A stretch of 64,000 bases of DNA from [Zimmermannella] alba NBRC 15616 (GTDB lineage: Bacteria; Actinomycetota; Actinomycetes; Actinomycetales; Microbacteriaceae): positions 124,001 through 188,000 of the forward strand of contig NZ_BCSO01000002.1 of assembly GCF_001570905.1 (NCBI RefSeq). The letters run 5' to 3'. The notes beneath the pieces were generated by a model. That model saw nothing but the letters and a program-made list of their open reading frames with translations. It made no database searches and was not told the DNA's origin. The translations under genes and the position numbers were made by a program. Position 1 is the stretch's first letter; each line of letters starts with the position of its first letter. This document shows positions 5,598-38,891 of the stretch, piece after piece.

Positions 5598-7013
5598 ATG
5601 GAGACCATCGCTGCTGCCCTGAAAGCCATTGACGATTTCGTCTGGGGTCCCTGGCTGCTCATCCCGCTCCTGCTGGGAACTGGTCTCCTCCTCTCGATCC
5701 GACTTCGCGCCGTTCAGCTGCGCAAGCTCGGCCCAGCGCTTCGCCTTGGACTCCTCCAACGCTCCGATGACACCGATTCCGGTGACATCTCGCAGTACCA
5801 GGCCCTGACGACGGCTCTCGCCGCGACCGTCGGCGTTGGCAACATCGTCGGTGTCGCGACCGCCATTGCGGTGGGTGGCCCGGGGGCGCTGTTCTGGATG
5901 TGGATGACGGGCCTGGTCGGCATGGCCTCCAAGTACGCCGAAGCCTTCCTCGGTGTGCGTTTCCGCACGCGCGACGCCGCCGGCAAGATGTCGGGCGGCC
6001 CCCAGTACTACCTCAAGCGAGGCATCGGCGGACGCTTCGGCACCTTCCTCTCGCTCTGGTTTGCGATCTTCGCCGTGCTTGCGAGCTTCGGCATCGGCAA
6101 CATGACCCAGGCGAACGCAGTCTCCGCGCAGCTGCACGACACCTTCAACGTCGACCCCATCATCACGGGCATCGTGCTCATGGTGCTCACCGGGCTCGTC
6201 CTCCTCGGCGGTATCTCGGCCATCGGCAAGGTGACCGCTGGATTTGTGCCGATCATGATCGGTCTCTACATCGTTGCGGGCACCGTCGTCCTCATGCTCA
6301 ACGGCCCTGCCCTCCCGGGCGCCATCGCCGCGATCTTCACGCAGGCCTTCACCGGCAGCGCGGCCGCGGGCGGCTTCATCGGCTCGACCTTCCTCATCAT
6401 GCTGCAAATGGGCGTGGCACGAGGCATCTTCTCGAACGAATCCGGCATGGGGTCCGCCGCGATTGCAGCGGCTGCCGCACAGACGAGCCACCCTGTCCGC
6501 CAGGGTCTCGTGTCGATGACGCAGACCTTCATTGACACGCTCATTGTCGTGACCTTCACCGGCCTCATCGTCATTTCTTCGGGCGTGTGGACCGGCGGCA
6601 AGGATGCGGCCGACACGATGACCGCCGACGCGTTCCGGGAGGTGCTGCCGGGCGAATTCGGCGGCTGGATTGTTGCCATCTCGATCGTGTTCTTTGCGTT
6701 CTCGACCGTACTCGGATGGGCCTACTACGGCGAACGATGTGTGGAGCGCCTTGGCGGCGTGAAGTGGGGCTACGTCTACCGCCTCATCTTCACCCTCGTG
6801 GTGTTCGTCGGCGCCACGGTGCCGCTAGAGATCGTGTGGACCTTCGCCGACATCATGAACGGGCTCATGGCGCTCCCGAATCTCATTGGTCTCATCCTGC
6901 TTTCAGGGCTGATCACTCGTGAAACCAAGCACTACCTCGACCACGACCCGAAGCTCACCGCATCGAACCGCGAGATCGACGTGTTCATGCAGGGACACGA
7001 GCGACACGAGTAG
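5598..7013 (+). CDS. Sodium:amino acid symporter, AGCS family
   Basis: A 471-residue polytopic carrier of the alanine/glycine:cation symporter family. Family signatures are visible: ALTTALAATVGVGNIVGVAT near the N-terminus, the SGGPQYYL stretch, FSNESGMGSA (start of a conserved helix-loop) and VFFAFSTVLGWAYYGERCVE. Length and about eleven hydrophobic helices are typical. It probably imports alanine, glycine or glutamine with Na+; which one cannot be told. The ATG at 5598 was chosen because the protein begins in the usual place (METIAAALKAIDDFVWG). An upstream in-frame extension would run into the tRNA terminator. Confidence 0.92.
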   Translation: METIAAALKAIDDFVWGPWLLIPLLLGTGLLLSIRLRAVQLRKLGPALRLGLLQRSDDTDSGDISQYQALTTALAATVGVGNIVGVATAIAVGGPGALFWMWMTGLVGMASKYAEAFLGVRFRTRDAAGKMSGGPQYYLKRGIGGRFGTFLSLWFAIFAVLASFGIGNMTQANAVSAQLHDTFNVDPIITGIVLMVLTGLVLLGGISAIGKVTAGFVPIMIGLYIVAGTVVLMLNGPALPGAIAAIFTQAFTGSAAAGGFIGSTFLIMLQMGVARGIFSNESGMGSAAIAAAAAQTSHPVRQGLVSMTQTFIDTLIVVTFTGLIVISSGVWTGGKDAADTMTADAFREVLPGEFGGWIVAISIVFFAFSTVLGWAYYGERCVERLGGVKWGYVYRLIFTLVVFVGATVPLEIVWTFADIMNGLMALPNLIGLILLSGLITRETKHYLDHDPKLTASNREIDVFMQGHERHE

Positions 7014-34648: not shown

Positions 34649-35737
34649 ATGACCGCTCCTGCATTCCGCATTGAACAGAACCCCACGCCGATCTCCGCAG
34701 AAGAGTGCGCCGCAGTGCTCGAGAACCCCGGCTTCGGCAAGCGCTTCACCGACCACATGGCGCTCATCGACTGGACGCTTGAGGAAGGCTGGCACGACGC
34801 CCGCATCGTCCCGTACGGCCCCTTCCAGATGGACCCCGCCTCCTCGATCTTCCACTACGGCCAGGAGGTCTTCGAAGGGCTCAAGGCCTACCGTCACGCG
34901 GATGGCAGCATCCACACTTTCCGTCCGGAACGCAACGCTGCCCGCCTTCGCCAGTCCGCGAAGCGCCTCGCGCTGCCCGAACTGCCGGATGAGCTCTTCA
35001 TCGGTGCCATTGAAGAACTCGTGAAGATTGACGCCGAGTGGGTGCCCGCGCACGGCGAAGGGATGTCGCTGTACCTGCGCCCCTTCATCATCGCGAACGA
35101 GAGCTTCCTCGGCGTCCGCGCCGCCCACCGCGCCACTTTCTGCGTCATCGCGTGCCCGGCCGGTTCGTACTTCGCTGACCCGACGCGCCCTGTGAGTATC
35201 TGGCTTTCGCAGCAGTTCTCGCGCGCGGGTCGTGGCGGCACGGGCTTCGCGAAGTGTGGCGGCAACTACGCGGCGTCGCTTCTCCCGACGACGGAGGCCT
35301 ACGCCCAAGGGTGTGAACAGGTGCTCTTCCTCGACTCGTGCGAGAACCGCTACCTCGAAGAGCTCGGCGGCATGAACATCCTCCTCGTGAAGAAGGACGG
35401 CACGATCCTCACGCCGGACTCCGACTCCATCCTTCCGGGCATCACCCGCGACACGCTCCTCGAGCTCGCCGAGCAGGACGGCCACCGTGTGGAGCGTCGC
35501 CGCATCGCCCTCGATGAGTGGCGGGATGGCGTTGCCTCGGGCGAGATCGTCGAAGCCTTCGCCTGCGGCACCGCGGCCGTCGTCTCACCGATCGGCGTCC
35601 TCAAGGCACCGAACTTCACGCTCGAGAACCCGCCGGTGACTGCCGAATCGGTGTCCATGAAGCTGCGTGCCAAGCTCACCGGCATACAGAACGGCGACGT
35701 GGCCGACACGAACGGCTGGCTCCACCGCCTCGTCTAG
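34649..35737 (+). CDS. ilvE: Branched-chain amino acid aminotransferase
   Basis: A 362-residue fold-type IV PLP enzyme for the last step of leucine, isoleucine and valine synthesis. The PLP lysine is Lys202 (GTGFAKCGGNYAASL). FHYGQEVFEGLKAYRH and YLEELGGMNI are family blocks, and EAFACGTAAVVSPI binds the cofactor phosphate. GGAAAG precedes the ATG at 34649. G+C is high up to its stop at 35737; the low-GC island begins immediately afterwards. Confidence 0.96.
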   Translation: MTAPAFRIEQNPTPISAEECAAVLENPGFGKRFTDHMALIDWTLEEGWHDARIVPYGPFQMDPASSIFHYGQEVFEGLKAYRHADGSIHTFRPERNAARLRQSAKRLALPELPDELFIGAIEELVKIDAEWVPAHGEGMSLYLRPFIIANESFLGVRAAHRATFCVIACPAGSYFADPTRPVSIWLSQQFSRAGRGGTGFAKCGGNYAASLLPTTEAYAQGCEQVLFLDSCENRYLEELGGMNILLVKKDGTILTPDSDSILPGITRDTLLELAEQDGHRVERRRIALDEWRDGVASGEIVEAFACGTAAVVSPIGVLKAPNFTLENPPVTAESVSMKLRAKLTGIQNGDVADTNGWLHRLV

Positions 35738-35817
35738 CTGGTGATTCGTTGCGGCTTTGTGTATTCACACCTATCGCTCAGGAGTGGGGCTTGGCGGATG
35801 CCTGACATTGAGCTACG

Positions 35818-35832
35818 TTGTTCTCCGAACAA
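35818..35832. promoter_or_regulatory. Palindrome before the short peptide gene
   Basis: TTGTTC-TCC-GAACAA, a perfect 6-bp inverted repeat with a 3-base spacer, 21 bases before the start codon of the 30-codon gene. It could be an operator or a small 5' hairpin. No clear -35/-10 pair was assigned. Confidence 0.45.
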
Positions 35833-35853
35833 TGGAGTTCGAGGAGGTTAGTT

Positions 35854-35946
35854 ATGGAGAAGCTGATCGAAGAAATTCGTCGCGAGCACCTCGACGCGCT
35901 TCGTGCCGTCGACTTGGATTGCTGCTCAAACATGACTGCGGTCTAA
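35854..35946 (+). CDS. Putative RiPP precursor peptide (30 aa)
   Basis: A 30-codon gene with an ideal ribosome binding site, GAGGAGG at 35841-35847, 6 bases before the ATG. The N-terminal two thirds begins MEKLIEEIRR and is a charged amphipathic helix, like a leader peptide. The last eleven residues read DLDCCSNMTAV, with adjacent Cys23-Cys24, Ser25 and Thr28 as candidate modification sites. Just after the stop is a perfect 12-bp hairpin, then three close-set genes for a small protein, a PLP enzyme and a polytopic membrane protein. This is the usual order of a precursor followed by weaker downstream maturation genes. That it is a RiPP precursor is inference; I know no matching family. Confidence 0.6.
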   Translation: MEKLIEEIRREHLDALRAVDLDCCSNMTAV

Positions 35947-35952
35947 TCTAAC

Positions 35953-35981
35953 GCTTGGCCGGAGCTTGTCTCCGGCCAAGC
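35953..35981 (+). terminator. Hairpin (attenuator-like) after the precursor gene
   Basis: A perfect 12-bp stem, GCTTGGCCGGAG / CTCCGGCCAAGC, with loop CTTGT, followed by TTTG, begins 6 bases after the peptide stop. Partial termination here would give more precursor transcript than enzyme transcript, as is common in peptide natural-product operons. Confidence 0.7.
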
Positions 35982-35999
35982 TTTGACAAAGGGGTCAAG

Positions 36000-36524
36000 G
36001 TGATTTCAGACCAGTATGTTCGACACATTCGTTCCCGAATCGCGGGGCAATCTATTGAGCAGATCGACCTTGAAATAGTTGAGGTGCTCAAGTTCCTAGC
36101 AATCGTTTCCGCGTCAACTGGGCGTCGCTTCCCATTGACGCAAGAAGCTGATCAAGTGTGGCATGAGTTGATCCTGCAAACGGGACTTTATGCTCGTCTG
36201 TGTCGAGAATTGCCCGGCGGGCATTTTCTTCATCATGAGTCCATTACTCCAGTTGAGTATCATGATCGCGTCGGTGATGATACTTTTGTGCGTGAGTGGG
36301 TCCAATGGGTTCCTGACTATGTTCAGAATTTTGGGCCATTCGTCGGTGAAGCTGCTCGGGCGTGGAATGTGGTCGTATTTCTCCAGAATGAAATGGGGCT
36401 CTCCCTTCAGGAAATCAACGATTTGGGCCAGAGTGAGGCTCCGTCTTGTCGTGTCCCTGGGAAGGTGGGTCAGCAGCTGAATCTACTTGAAGCGCGGCTA
36501 CGAGCAACTCGAAAGCATGGTTGA
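36000..36524 (+). CDS. Small WHxxIL/HH-motif protein, unknown (peptide cluster)
   Basis: A 174-residue protein starting at GTG 36000 with AAAGGGG upstream. The core reads EADQVWHELILQTGLYARLC, then GGHFLHHES. This Asp-x2-Trp-His, Leu-x2-Thr-x2-Tyr, Cys and Phe-x-His-His spacing resembles small bacterial proteins related to the DUF1399/glycine-rich-domain-like family, whose function I do not know. The histidines and Cys could bind a metal. The rest is helical and polar. It sits between the precursor gene and the PLP enzyme gene and overlaps the latter by 8 bases. It could bind the precursor or be an enzyme. Base composition is lower in G+C than flanking genes. Confidence 0.7.
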   Translation: MISDQYVRHIRSRIAGQSIEQIDLEIVEVLKFLAIVSASTGRRFPLTQEADQVWHELILQTGLYARLCRELPGGHFLHHESITPVEYHDRVGDDTFVREWVQWVPDYVQNFGPFVGEAARAWNVVVFLQNEMGLSLQEINDLGQSEAPSCRVPGKVGQQLNLLEARLRATRKHG

Positions 36525-37449
36525 GTCCATTCGTTATCGGTTGCCGCCGGATGGGGTCAGTTTCGCCCTCCCGGATGACAGGCTCCCTTCTTGGTTTAAA
36601 GCCGAAGTCTGCCAAGCCGTACTTGATTCGCCTTGGAACGGGTATATTGCTGACGGACAGTTTGAATTTGAGTCGTTCGCATCTCTAGATGGCGCGTCAG
36701 TAAAAGATAACGTAGTCGTGCTGACGCGTGGGGCAGATGAAGCGATACTGCTCCTGGCCGCAGCGGTTAAGCGAGTCGTTGTCCCTCTTGGGTGTTATCC
36801 GGGTTATGATCGTTTGAAGCTACGGGGCCTCGGTGTTGATGTTCGCTACTATGACCCCTCTGGATTTCCACGTGGCCTTGGGGAGCCGGATACGAGGGTT
36901 TTCGTTTGCTATCCAGGTAACCCTGTCGATCCCGCGTGGTTTGATGCTGTCTGTTCGCGATCGATGGATCTCAGTGGTCTAGTTGTAGATGCCACCTATT
37001 TTTGCCCCTTCTCTGAGGAATTCGAGAACCTGGCGTCTCGTGTAGTGGCATCGGGCGGCTTGGTGATTTTTTCGCTGTCCAAGACGCTTGGTGTAGCTGC
37101 TGCCAGGCTGGGAGGGATAGTTGGCCCAATCGGACAGGTTCCGCCGTCTTTGGATGTCTCGAGGATTGACGTTTTTCAAGCTGCTCTATGGAGAGTGTTC
37201 AATACGCCGTCTGGTCGTGGGGTTGCCAGAACTATCTTGGAATCACTCCGTTGTTGCAAGAATGATCTCGAGGCTCGTGTAAAAAGCTTGGGCTATTCCG
37301 TTCGGCCTAGTCTTGCCGAGTCGTTCTTACTCGTTGAAGAGCCCTCGTGGTCCCTTATTTCGGGTCTCGCTGCGAAACGATATCCCGAGTTTGGCTTGCT
37401 TCGTGTTGATGTGTGTCAAACGAATCTTGACTTCTTGGAAGCTGTCTAA
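36517..37449 (+). CDS. Short fold-type I PLP-dependent aminotransferase-like enzyme
   Basis: A 310-residue protein related to HisC/CobD-type class I/II aminotransferases. Visible landmarks are VVLTRGADEAILLL (cofactor-phosphate region), CYPGNPVDPAWF (Asn135), GLVVDATYF (Asp159, which pairs with the pyridine N) and IFSLSKTLGVAAARLGG (Lys189, the Schiff base). An Arg in GLLRVDVC near the end matches the substrate-carboxylate Arg. It is about 40 residues shorter than HisC. The ATG at 36517 was preferred over a TTG ten codons upstream. Linked to a Cys-Cys peptide gene, it may act on a small amino acid or on the peptide; that is not determined by sequence. Confidence 0.75.
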   Translation: MVESIRYRLPPDGVSFALPDDRLPSWFKAEVCQAVLDSPWNGYIADGQFEFESFASLDGASVKDNVVVLTRGADEAILLLAAAVKRVVVPLGCYPGYDRLKLRGLGVDVRYYDPSGFPRGLGEPDTRVFVCYPGNPVDPAWFDAVCSRSMDLSGLVVDATYFCPFSEEFENLASRVVASGGLVIFSLSKTLGVAAARLGGIVGPIGQVPPSLDVSRIDVFQAALWRVFNTPSGRGVARTILESLRCCKNDLEARVKSLGYSVRPSLAESFLLVEEPSWSLISGLAAKRYPEFGLLRVDVCQTNLDFLEAV

Positions 37450-37453
37450 GCGC

Positions 37454-38716
37454 ATGAAGAGTGTTTTGGGTCAGCCAGCTGTTTTTGCTAAGAATCGGAT
37501 TATGTTTCTTAAGAAGGGGGGCATGCTTGGTCTCGCTGCCATCCTGCCAGGCGGACAGGCGTTAGCGATGGTGGCCCTTGCGGGACTCTTGCATGGCGCA
37601 TCGAGCGGTTCTCGAGTTGGCCTGGTGTTGCAGCTTGCCGGTCTCTCGACGGTTGCATTTGTTGGAGTAACCATACTCGTGGTGAATCGATGTGGGGCGA
37701 AAACATCGGAATGGCGCGTGCGACTCCACGAACTGCGCTTGCTTGCTCGGTGCGCTTCCCTCATTTCGGCAACTGTATATGCAGGCTTTGTGGCGTTTCT
37801 TGCCTCGCTCGAGGAATTGGCTGGGGCTGGATTGGTTTTTGCAATAGCCTCGGGCGTAGCGGTGAGTTGCATTCCTCTCTTGTCCTGGCAGGCGGGTGTC
37901 ATGCAGGTGCTCGACTTGGAGCGCTTGAATCTCGTATGGGGGGTACTTATCGCAATCGCTCCTGTAGTGGCTCTGATATTTTTGCGGGGTTGCGCCGCAT
38001 CAGTTGCTCTCGGGGTTGCTGGATCTGTGTGGAGTCTCGTTGTTGTTGCCTCAGTGTTACATCGTGAATACGCCGCGTCGAGAGCCGGTGCGACAATTGG
38101 CCGAGTGCCCCCTGGCGTAGCTGGCCTCAGGGGTGTTGTCCGAGACTTGATCTCAAGTCTGCTTGGCGCGTCCGACGGCCTCATGATGATGGTTGTGTTC
38201 ACGGTTCTTCTGACGTTGGCGCATATTGCGGGTGATTCTGAGGCGTTGGGGGTTGCATTCGCCATTAATGTTGCCCGCATATTTGTGCTGCCGCTCAAAC
38301 AGTTTGGCATGGTAGGTGGGCGTCTTGTGCTGCAAGGCGCGGGGGCGGTCTCCTCCTACGTTGGTCTCATGTGTGCTGTTTTGAGCATCATTGCGATTGC
38401 CCTCGTCGCATGCGCGATGTTGGATATTCATCTATCGGGTGTGTCGCCGGAACTCTTTCTGTTGCTTGCCTTGCAAATGACTATCGAGCCATTCGGCGCC
38501 TTTCTCTCAACGATGCGAAAGGTGATTGAAGGGCCGTCGGCGACGGTCGCTGGCCTTGCGGTATGTCTTGTTCTTGTTGTCGCTGCGTCGTGTTGCTTGC
38601 TTTATTTCGGCTTGTTCACGGCCGTGAACGTGTGGCTTGTGTGGGTCGCTGGCCGAATCGTATTTGCCGTGAGTACATGCGTCGGACTGCGAAGCCGGGA
38701 ACTGACAGCAACGTAG
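37454..38716 (+). CDS. Polytopic membrane protein, MOP/flippase-like (putative exporter)
   Basis: A 420-residue protein with about twelve hydrophobic helices, beginning MKSVLGQPAVFAKNRIMFLK, 4 bases after the PLP enzyme stop. Length, helix number and the polar residues in the first helix suggest the MOP flippase superfamily (MATE, Wzx), but no signature is decisive. Hydrophilic loops are short. As the last gene of the peptide operon it is the best candidate for export of the product, or for self-protection. Codon use includes many A/T-ending codons unlike the flanking ilvE and PucR genes. Confidence 0.7.
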   Translation: MKSVLGQPAVFAKNRIMFLKKGGMLGLAAILPGGQALAMVALAGLLHGASSGSRVGLVLQLAGLSTVAFVGVTILVVNRCGAKTSEWRVRLHELRLLARCASLISATVYAGFVAFLASLEELAGAGLVFAIASGVAVSCIPLLSWQAGVMQVLDLERLNLVWGVLIAIAPVVALIFLRGCAASVALGVAGSVWSLVVVASVLHREYAASRAGATIGRVPPGVAGLRGVVRDLISSLLGASDGLMMMVVFTVLLTLAHIAGDSEALGVAFAINVARIFVLPLKQFGMVGGRLVLQGAGAVSSYVGLMCAVLSIIAIALVACAMLDIHLSGVSPELFLLLALQMTIEPFGAFLSTMRKVIEGPSATVAGLAVCLVLVVAASCCLLYFGLFTAVNVWLVWVAGRIVFAVSTCVGLRSRELTAT

Positions 38717-38891
38717 CTGGTGGAGCGTGAACTCAAGTCGCTGAGAAACCTGTGCAGGGAGGTGAACTGGGCACGCACGGATAGCCCTCTGCGAAGCGCA
38801 TAGTCCGGTGCTCTGCCGTAACGAGGTATGCAGCATCGGGATCGCATGACAACTTGCGCGAAGCCCGTGGCCGGAACCCTCTCCTCGGCGG

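Follow-up and report, generated by a model that had tools for sequence, protein, structure and literature searches.

A window of 64,000 nucleotides from [Zimmermannella] alba NBRC 15616 (contig NZ_BCSO01000002.1, positions 124,001 to 188,000 of the forward strand) carries a compact cassette of four genes encoding a short peptide with a Cys-Cys pair, a small protein with the motif series WHxxIL ... C ... HH (the WH protein), a fold-type I pyridoxal phosphate (PLP) enzyme, and a twelve-helix membrane protein. Judged by sequence comparison, the four genes form a real and conserved unit of patchy distribution that has a short Cys-Cys peptide of its own, two weak links aside. Its most likely reading, held with moderate confidence, is a synthesis system resembling those that make ribosomally synthesized and post-translationally modified peptides (RiPPs). 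This reading draws on four gene families shared between loci with differing flanks, a peptide conserved above chance, a patchy presence, an intact enzyme active site, and the precedent of methanobactin. An initial annotation of the window had already proposed a RiPP-like operon, a proposal that is partly supported, and a ribosomal precursor-type peptide gene is indeed kept next to enzymes in 4/4 cassettes; its additional description of the membrane protein as MOP-like reflects topology and has no matching family profile.

Besides the window genome, the cassette occurs in genomes G1057 (locus L036), G1053 (L037), and G940 (L038), together four genera of one family. Within that family, a search with the PLP enzyme is positive in 4/398 genomes, the window's own included, and in none of the window's nine genus relatives, while a WH profile marks 1/27, 1/26, and 1/7 species within the three other genera. 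A second draw of the same family (198 genomes, with G940 as the single match) overlaps the first and adds no cassette. Searches with the WH protein in 297 genomes from the order and 396 from the phylum, with the PLP enzyme in 396 genomes from the phylum, and with the WH profile in 186 genomes from a second family, the last without a positive control, yield no further cassette. Plasmid searches with the PLP protein, the membrane protein, and the cassette DNA give zero matches, and viral scans with the PLP protein and cassette profiles reveal no cassette. The sole match of a genome contig scan (L017, 40% over 54 residues) lies opposite a long open reading frame (ORF) on the other strand and is attributed to chance.

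An all-against-all comparison of ORFs of at least 27 amino acids (aa) in the ~16 kb around each cassette finds only four gene families common to the loci at E 1e-3. The peptide gene comes first and the WH gene second in all four loci; the PLP gene precedes the membrane protein gene in the window and L037 and follows it in L036 and L038. The surroundings differ: in the window, an ilvE-like aminotransferase class IV gene (ending at 35737) and a PucR-type regulator on the opposite strand adjoin the cassette; at L036, its neighbors are a leucyl-tRNA synthetase and a competence protein; at L037, a Mutator-family transposase and a melibiase; and at L038, a histidine kinase and a glycosyl hydrolase. 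GC content is 0.52-0.56 in 1-kb windows entirely within the cassette genes compared with 0.61-0.68 in the flanks, delimiting a tract with approximate edges at 35750 and 38716 for which horizontal acquisition is probable; cassette GC is lower than that of the flanks in L036 and L037 as well and less markedly so in L038. The four shared genes, differing flanks, and low GC together look like a self-contained unit that moves from genome to genome. In its layout, the cassette is as initially described, with four consecutive plus-strand genes (35854-38716) in a low-GC island, an 8-base overlap of the WH and PLP genes, and a 4-base gap between the PLP and membrane protein genes. The transposase gene of L037 (4413-5636) lies ~1.1 kb upstream of the G1053 cassette's peptide gene, which is a hint only. 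An inverted repeat at the edges of the window cassette (35811-35825 / 38704-38718; 10 exact bases, 15 at 87%) is set aside, being within what chance would give in a region of this size.

The first gene of the cassette (35854..35946, plus strand) encodes a putative precursor of 30 aa, MEKLIEEIRREHLDALRAVDLDCCSNMTAV, with a conserved N-terminal segment and a C-C tail. Its counterparts in the three other genomes are MEELVARIEKDHLEALKRVELDCCSNPVAT, MEKLIEQIKNEKLAEIRAVEMDCCAEVT, and MELLIDRILDRHFDALRNHAQSCCGGAPSPGPDQ, giving a range of 28-34 aa. M1, E2, L4, I8, C23, and C24 are invariant in 4/4 peptides, the residues behind the C-C pair vary, and the C-terminal residues are V, T, T, and Q. This conserved front half, the invariant C-C pair, and an end variable in both sequence and length would have the look of a leader and core. 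According to the initial annotation, a conserved system should show short Cys-containing peptide genes beside homologues of the PLP enzyme, and all three close homologues come with a short Cys-Cys peptide gene lying shortly before the WH gene. When the 300 bases ahead of the WH gene are dinucleotide-shuffled, 0/1000 sequences reach the observed peptide conservation score in each of L036, L037, and L038. Codon changes were compared among the window, L036, and L037, leaving out L038. Third codon positions differ most (16/27 between the window and L036, 14/27 between the window and L037), and 9/21 and 7/19 of the changed codons, respectively, are synonymous.

The peptide's identity to the window copy (53, 57, and 40%) exceeds that of the PLP enzymes (31, 30, and 30%) and that of the membrane proteins (31, 24, and 24%). 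It is improbable that the cassette is an ordinary small-molecule pathway or transporter operon whose short ORF plays an unrelated role, for example as a small chaperone of the membrane protein. The kinship of the PLP enzyme with enzymes of primary metabolism and the generality of the WH family are consistent with such an operon, but the peptide is present in all four cassettes, resembles its window copy more closely than the PLP and membrane proteins resemble theirs, and stays first beside the WH gene while the other two genes swap order.

The peptide gene is framed by two signals. A strong ribosome binding site, read from the sequence as GAGGAGG (35841..35847, plus strand), precedes the gene, and purine-rich sites also precede the peptide genes of L036, L037, and L038. 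Between the peptide and WH genes, a 12-bp hairpin (35953..35981, plus strand) folds at -29.6 kcal/mol (z -5.35), a value that 0/200 shuffles equal; it has no long U tract. Both elements were correctly recognized in the initial annotation. Hairpins of unrelated sequence stand behind the peptide genes of L036 (z -3.81) and L037 (z -3.51), and by eye only L036 among the three has a U-rich stretch after the hairpin. The short ORF might be a regulatory leader peptide, with ribosome pausing at its two Cys codons (or an arrest peptide) controlling the operon through the hairpin; the position of the ORF at the operon's head, the C-C codons near its end, and the hairpin directly behind all accord with this idea. 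It has little probability nonetheless: the N-terminal half is conserved at the amino-acid level, beyond the Cys codons, which number just two, the hairpin is missing from L038, and a U-rich stretch, judged by eye, follows only the L036 hairpin. The window hairpin, moreover, is absent from the list of terminator-like sites and has no Rfam match. These points leave some room for a conserved arrest peptide.

The RiPP-like reading gains from the state of the PLP enzyme (36517..37449, plus strand; 310 aa), a distant HisC/CobD relative. N135, D158, Y161, K189, R197, and R296 are invariant in 4/4 cassette PLP enzymes, the other three being ~30% identical to the window copy. Of the active-site residues first proposed, Lys189 and Asn135 were right, and Asp159 was wrong, the aspartate being D158. 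The window enzyme scores 33.1 bits against the NCBIfam CobD model (cut-off 290.55), 23.3 against HisC (cut-off 276.55), and 15 against Pfam Aminotran_1_2 (cut-off 19.7), and the best E among the other three cassette enzymes is 1.6e-21, to hisC. Compared with solved structures, the PLP profile finds HisC-type aminotransferases (best E 1e-14) and threonine-phosphate decarboxylases, and R296 aligns with the Arg of the LR motif in the HisC-type chain 3euc. This Arg holds the substrate carboxylate in HisC-type enzymes. The cassette enzymes thus share with HisC, CobD (L-threonine-O-3-phosphate decarboxylase), and CobC-like proteins the fold-type I class, the same catalytic motif set, and their best profile matches; they differ in that the window enzyme is shorter and far under the curated cut-offs and in that the cassette enzymes form a separate clade.

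That clade appears in a tree of 11 sequences, the hits being trimmed to their last 365 residues, in which a branch supported at 100/99 separates the four cassette PLP enzymes from E. coli HisC and from six further hits taken as HisC/CobC-like. Had the enzyme grouped with the aminotransferases of primary metabolism, the initial annotation would have lost ground, and no such grouping is seen. The tree does not include the hits in G037 and G046; because of the G037 omission, the trimming, and several long branches, its inner order is not to be trusted. Judged against these seven outsiders, the PLP enzyme looks intact and with a history of its own, and less like a gene recently copied from primary metabolism. 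Matches to the window PLP protein in G037, G040, G046, G456, G520, G656, G690, and G693 are weaker than any cassette pair and are taken as HisC/CobC-like or other aminotransferases; six of these eight make up the six further hits of the tree. A single-sequence structure model of the enzyme reached a mean predicted local distance difference test (pLDDT) score of 35.6 and was discarded.

The WH protein (36000..36524, plus strand; 174 aa from a GTG start) is more closely conserved, at 47-53% identity between the window copy and the other cassette copies. D51, H55, C68, and H79 are invariant in the cassette WH proteins, and residue 78 is Asp in L036. Its structure model is all-helical, without strands, and has a mean pLDDT of 75, with ~92 over residues 1-70 and confidence to ~80; residues 112-174 are mostly poorly predicted. 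Against the PDB, the model gives no clear fold match (Foldseek best E 3.0; best VIA Z 4.6, 89 residues), from which a new fold does not follow, and the sequence finds PDB sequences at a best E of 0.07 alone and 0.035 as a profile, both taken as chance. Neither the window WH protein nor the window peptide has any match in Pfam, NCBIfam, PHROGs, or PADLOC. A kinship of the WH protein to plant GRDP/DUF1399 proteins was dropped after a Pfam search at E 10 gave no such match.

The fourth gene (37454..38716, plus strand) encodes a membrane protein of 420 aa, a probable exporter. Hydropathy predicts 12, 12, 12, and 10-11 helices for the four cassette proteins, the window copy having 12. The twelve helices first reported hold up by hydropathy; the MOP-like label attached to them reflects helix count and spacing, that is, topology alone, and finds no MOP family match in Pfam, NCBIfam, or the PDB. 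The window protein has zero matches in Pfam, NCBIfam, PADLOC, and PDB sequences. A match to PHROG 35517 (function not assigned; E 0.0023, 68 residues) is weak and says nothing on its role. Its orthologues, among which the G1053 protein shows the weakest homology, have zero Pfam matches, one chance name in NCBIfam (E 0.11), and a best PDB profile match at E 0.14 that is likewise taken as chance. In hhalign, the four-sequence membrane profile does not align with single E. coli MdtK, MurJ, and RfbX sequences (probabilities of 0.05-0.16%; MdtK 0.05%); the unrelated controls MdtH and WbbH score alike, so the alignment, with a profile of just four sequences, cannot discriminate. By position, export is the likely role of the membrane protein.

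A working precedent for the combination of a short Cys peptide, a transaminase annotated as HisC/CobD, and a MATE exporter is methanobactin, whose operons contain mbnA and mbnB and in some cases also mbnC, mbnM, and mbnN. Excerpts of a survey of methanobactin operons describe a Cys-containing MbnA precursor of 23-35 aa, a MATE exporter in many operons, the transaminase MbnN in three of those surveyed, and MbnB in all of them (PMC3621798). MbnN deaminates an N-terminal Leu, as stated in part of a second source (PMC8788703). The cassette peptides, at 28-34 aa with C-C, fit the precursor size and Cys content given in the survey excerpts (PMC3621798). The differences are that an unrelated WH protein stands in the place of MbnB in the cassette, and that the cysteines are adjacent as opposed to separate X-Cys pairs, the source of the oxazolone/thioamide groups in methanobactin. 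The cassette membrane protein, with 12 hydropathy helices and no MATE profile match, may or may not be a MATE exporter. MbnB (PF05114), a multinuclear iron enzyme, is found in 0/4 cassette genomes at E 0.01; as a positive control, PF05114 gives matches in 2/14 named genomes. With MbnB in none of the four genomes, and the window WH and membrane proteins in no Pfam or NCBIfam family, no known RiPP class has matched the cassette, in line with the initial annotation. If the cassette is a RiPP system, it works, by this comparison, like methanobactin in plan yet is no methanobactin.

Daptides offer a second comparison. The first daptide, made from a peptide with the help of a PLP aminotransferase, came from the actinobacterium Microbacterium paraoxydans, according to the accessible part of its description (PMC10036551). 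The cassette shares with daptides the pairing of a peptide with a PLP enzyme and an actinobacterial home (PMC10036551, in part). Daptide precursors have an invariant C-terminal Thr, in excerpts from a later paper (PMC11002830), unlike the cassette peptides with V, T, T, and Q at that position. The RRE-DUF protein, alcohol dehydrogenase, and methyltransferase of daptide systems are not among the four shared cassette families, and the cassette aminotransferase is PF00155-like, whereas that of daptides belongs to PF00202. Amino-group carrier proteins and PEARL scaffold peptides were dropped because their partner enzymes are absent. Among the matches listed in a literature search of titles and abstract openings, no description of this gene set is found; subscription papers are mostly outside its coverage. 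The decRiPPter paper lists 42 candidate classes, and the enzymes it detected include aminotransferases (PMC7794033); the cassette may overlap with these classes.

In a RiPP-like scheme, the peptide would be made in excess, as the strong ribosome site and the hairpin behind its gene suggest. Its conserved N-terminal half (M-E-x-L-I/V-x-x-I) would be recognized by one of the cassette enzymes, and the C-C tail with its variable end would be the part that matters in the product. The WH protein may act on or bind the peptide cysteines, perhaps through a metal that its invariant D51, H55, C68, and H79 may hold. With its intact HisC/CobD-like active site, the PLP enzyme would carry out chemistry on an amine, in the likeliest case that of the N-terminal residue once the leader has been cleaved, as MbnN does; alternatively, it would act on a free amino acid that is then joined to the peptide. 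The twelve-helix protein would export the result.

A bolder version of this scheme is possible, though doubtful: the cassette might represent a new RiPP class, minimal and horizontally moving, in which a peptide with vicinal Cys-Cys is modified or loaded by a WH protein of a new kind that needs no RiPP recognition element (RRE), its own amine is the target of a dedicated PLP enzyme derived from HisC/CobD, and the product, possibly metal-binding, leaves through a new family of exporters. If so, the large WH family of Streptomyces and its phages would represent further Cys-tail chemistry, with enzyme and core fused. Most RiPP classes came to light by way of enzymes already known or of RRE domains, and because the cassette shows neither a known RiPP enzyme nor an RRE, searches based on these would probably pass over it. 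With four genes in ~3 kb, the system could be expressed in one piece, and its PLP enzyme may use a peptide as substrate. It also gives a first functional setting to the WHxxIL family, for which 13 members match no Pfam model and four no NCBIfam model, and of which viral contigs alone supplied 42 members.

Several observations weigh against the RiPP-like reading. The known cassettes number just four, and the L038 peptide and the L037 membrane protein, by sequence the weakest homology links in the set, fall short of E 1e-3 in the all-against-all comparison. The former is linked by tblastn at E 0.003, its position, and the shuffle test, and the latter by tblastn at E 0.001 over 192 residues and its position. 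In the codon comparison, just 4/21 changed codons are synonymous between L036 and L037; with shares of 9/21, 7/19, and 4/21 and L038 left out, the codon signal by itself is moderate. L038 is without a hairpin behind its peptide gene (z -0.33). No cleavage site is visible in the four peptides, and no evident peptidase gene lies in the cassette, so leader removal would need a host protease. Pfam and NCBIfam scans of the window proteins recognize no RRE, although RREs are small and variable and no RRE-specific search was made. The exporter role draws on helix count. Distant relatives of the WH protein occur without the cassette, which means that this protein is no marker for the system. Finally, the invariance of R296 suggests that the substrate has its alpha-carboxylate free, as a free amino acid would, and this suits a peptide N-terminus less well.

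The last two points also bear on the main rival explanation. Here, the peptide would be a small partner of the WH protein, providing in trans, for example as metal ligands, the cysteines present in cis in WH relatives as a Cys-rich tail, and the PLP enzyme and transporter would make and export a small compound derived from an amino acid. The relatives come from four Streptomyces plasmids (L026-L029) and 44 IMG/VR stretches (L046-L089); 42 viral WH proteins were read, two stretches being dropped because the start codon is not in range. D51, W54, H55, T61, G74, H78, and H79 are invariant in a 37-sequence alignment of the family, and relatives on plasmids and viral contigs have in common with the cassette proteins the D-x-x-W-H motif, a T, a Y, a C, and the second H of HH. 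Most of them differ in ending in a Cys-bearing tail, whereas the cassette proteins carry another extension of ~67-93 residues, predicted to be helical at low confidence. At least two Cys follow the HH motif in 36/42 IMG/VR relatives, compared with 1, 0, 0, and 0 Cys in the cassette WH proteins. Such a division of labor would also suit the invariant C-C pair with its variable following residues and the carboxylate-type R296. Set against it, the helical part of the peptide has no evident counterpart in the cis tails, and four of the 40 non-truncated relatives (L061, L062, L067, and L073) are still family members with just one Cys after HH, the other two of the remaining six (L048 and L089) being truncated or very short. 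Many of the 42 relatives are, furthermore, closely related and hence not 42 independent cases. The partner-peptide explanation is accordingly unlikely, if a serious contender.

Across 59 loci of WH relatives (564,043 bases, some overlapping), no PLP or membrane gene of the cassette type is found at E 0.05, and the lone peptide match is weak (E 0.013). One of the Streptomyces plasmids has a class V PLP gene ~5.7 kb from the WH gene; near the WH gene, a helix-turn-helix regulator gene is present in 4/4 of these plasmids and a DUF397 or DUF6879 gene in 3/4. Four Pfam names obtained for 13 WH members, one member each (best TonB_N, E 0.0043), are taken as chance, and four members searched against NCBIfam matched no model. 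WH matches in G624, G318, G456, and G520 are relatives without the cassette, and those in G168 (E 0.007, one in-frame stop) and G072 (E 0.009) are weak. The TGA counted within the G940 WH match is the gene's own stop (L038 9522-9524) and no break. The WH gene of G1053 (L037:6926-6962) lacks ATG, GTG, or TTG at the homologous start; possible starts are a CTG at 6929, preceded by AGGAG, and a late TTG at 6962.

Two WH relatives occur in other arrangements. In G456 (L020:4839-6612), the WH gene overlaps a gene for a 369-aa protein without a Pfam match, and by eye both L020 proteins end alike (PGDLS...), which suggests that the pair have an additional domain in common and make up a two-gene system of another kind. 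In the IMG/VR stretch L042 (7623-8702), the WH domain lies within a 359-aa protein that has an N-terminal hydrophobic stretch and a tail rich in Ser, Gly, and Cys, and the neighboring genes resemble, by eye, phage tail and amidase genes.

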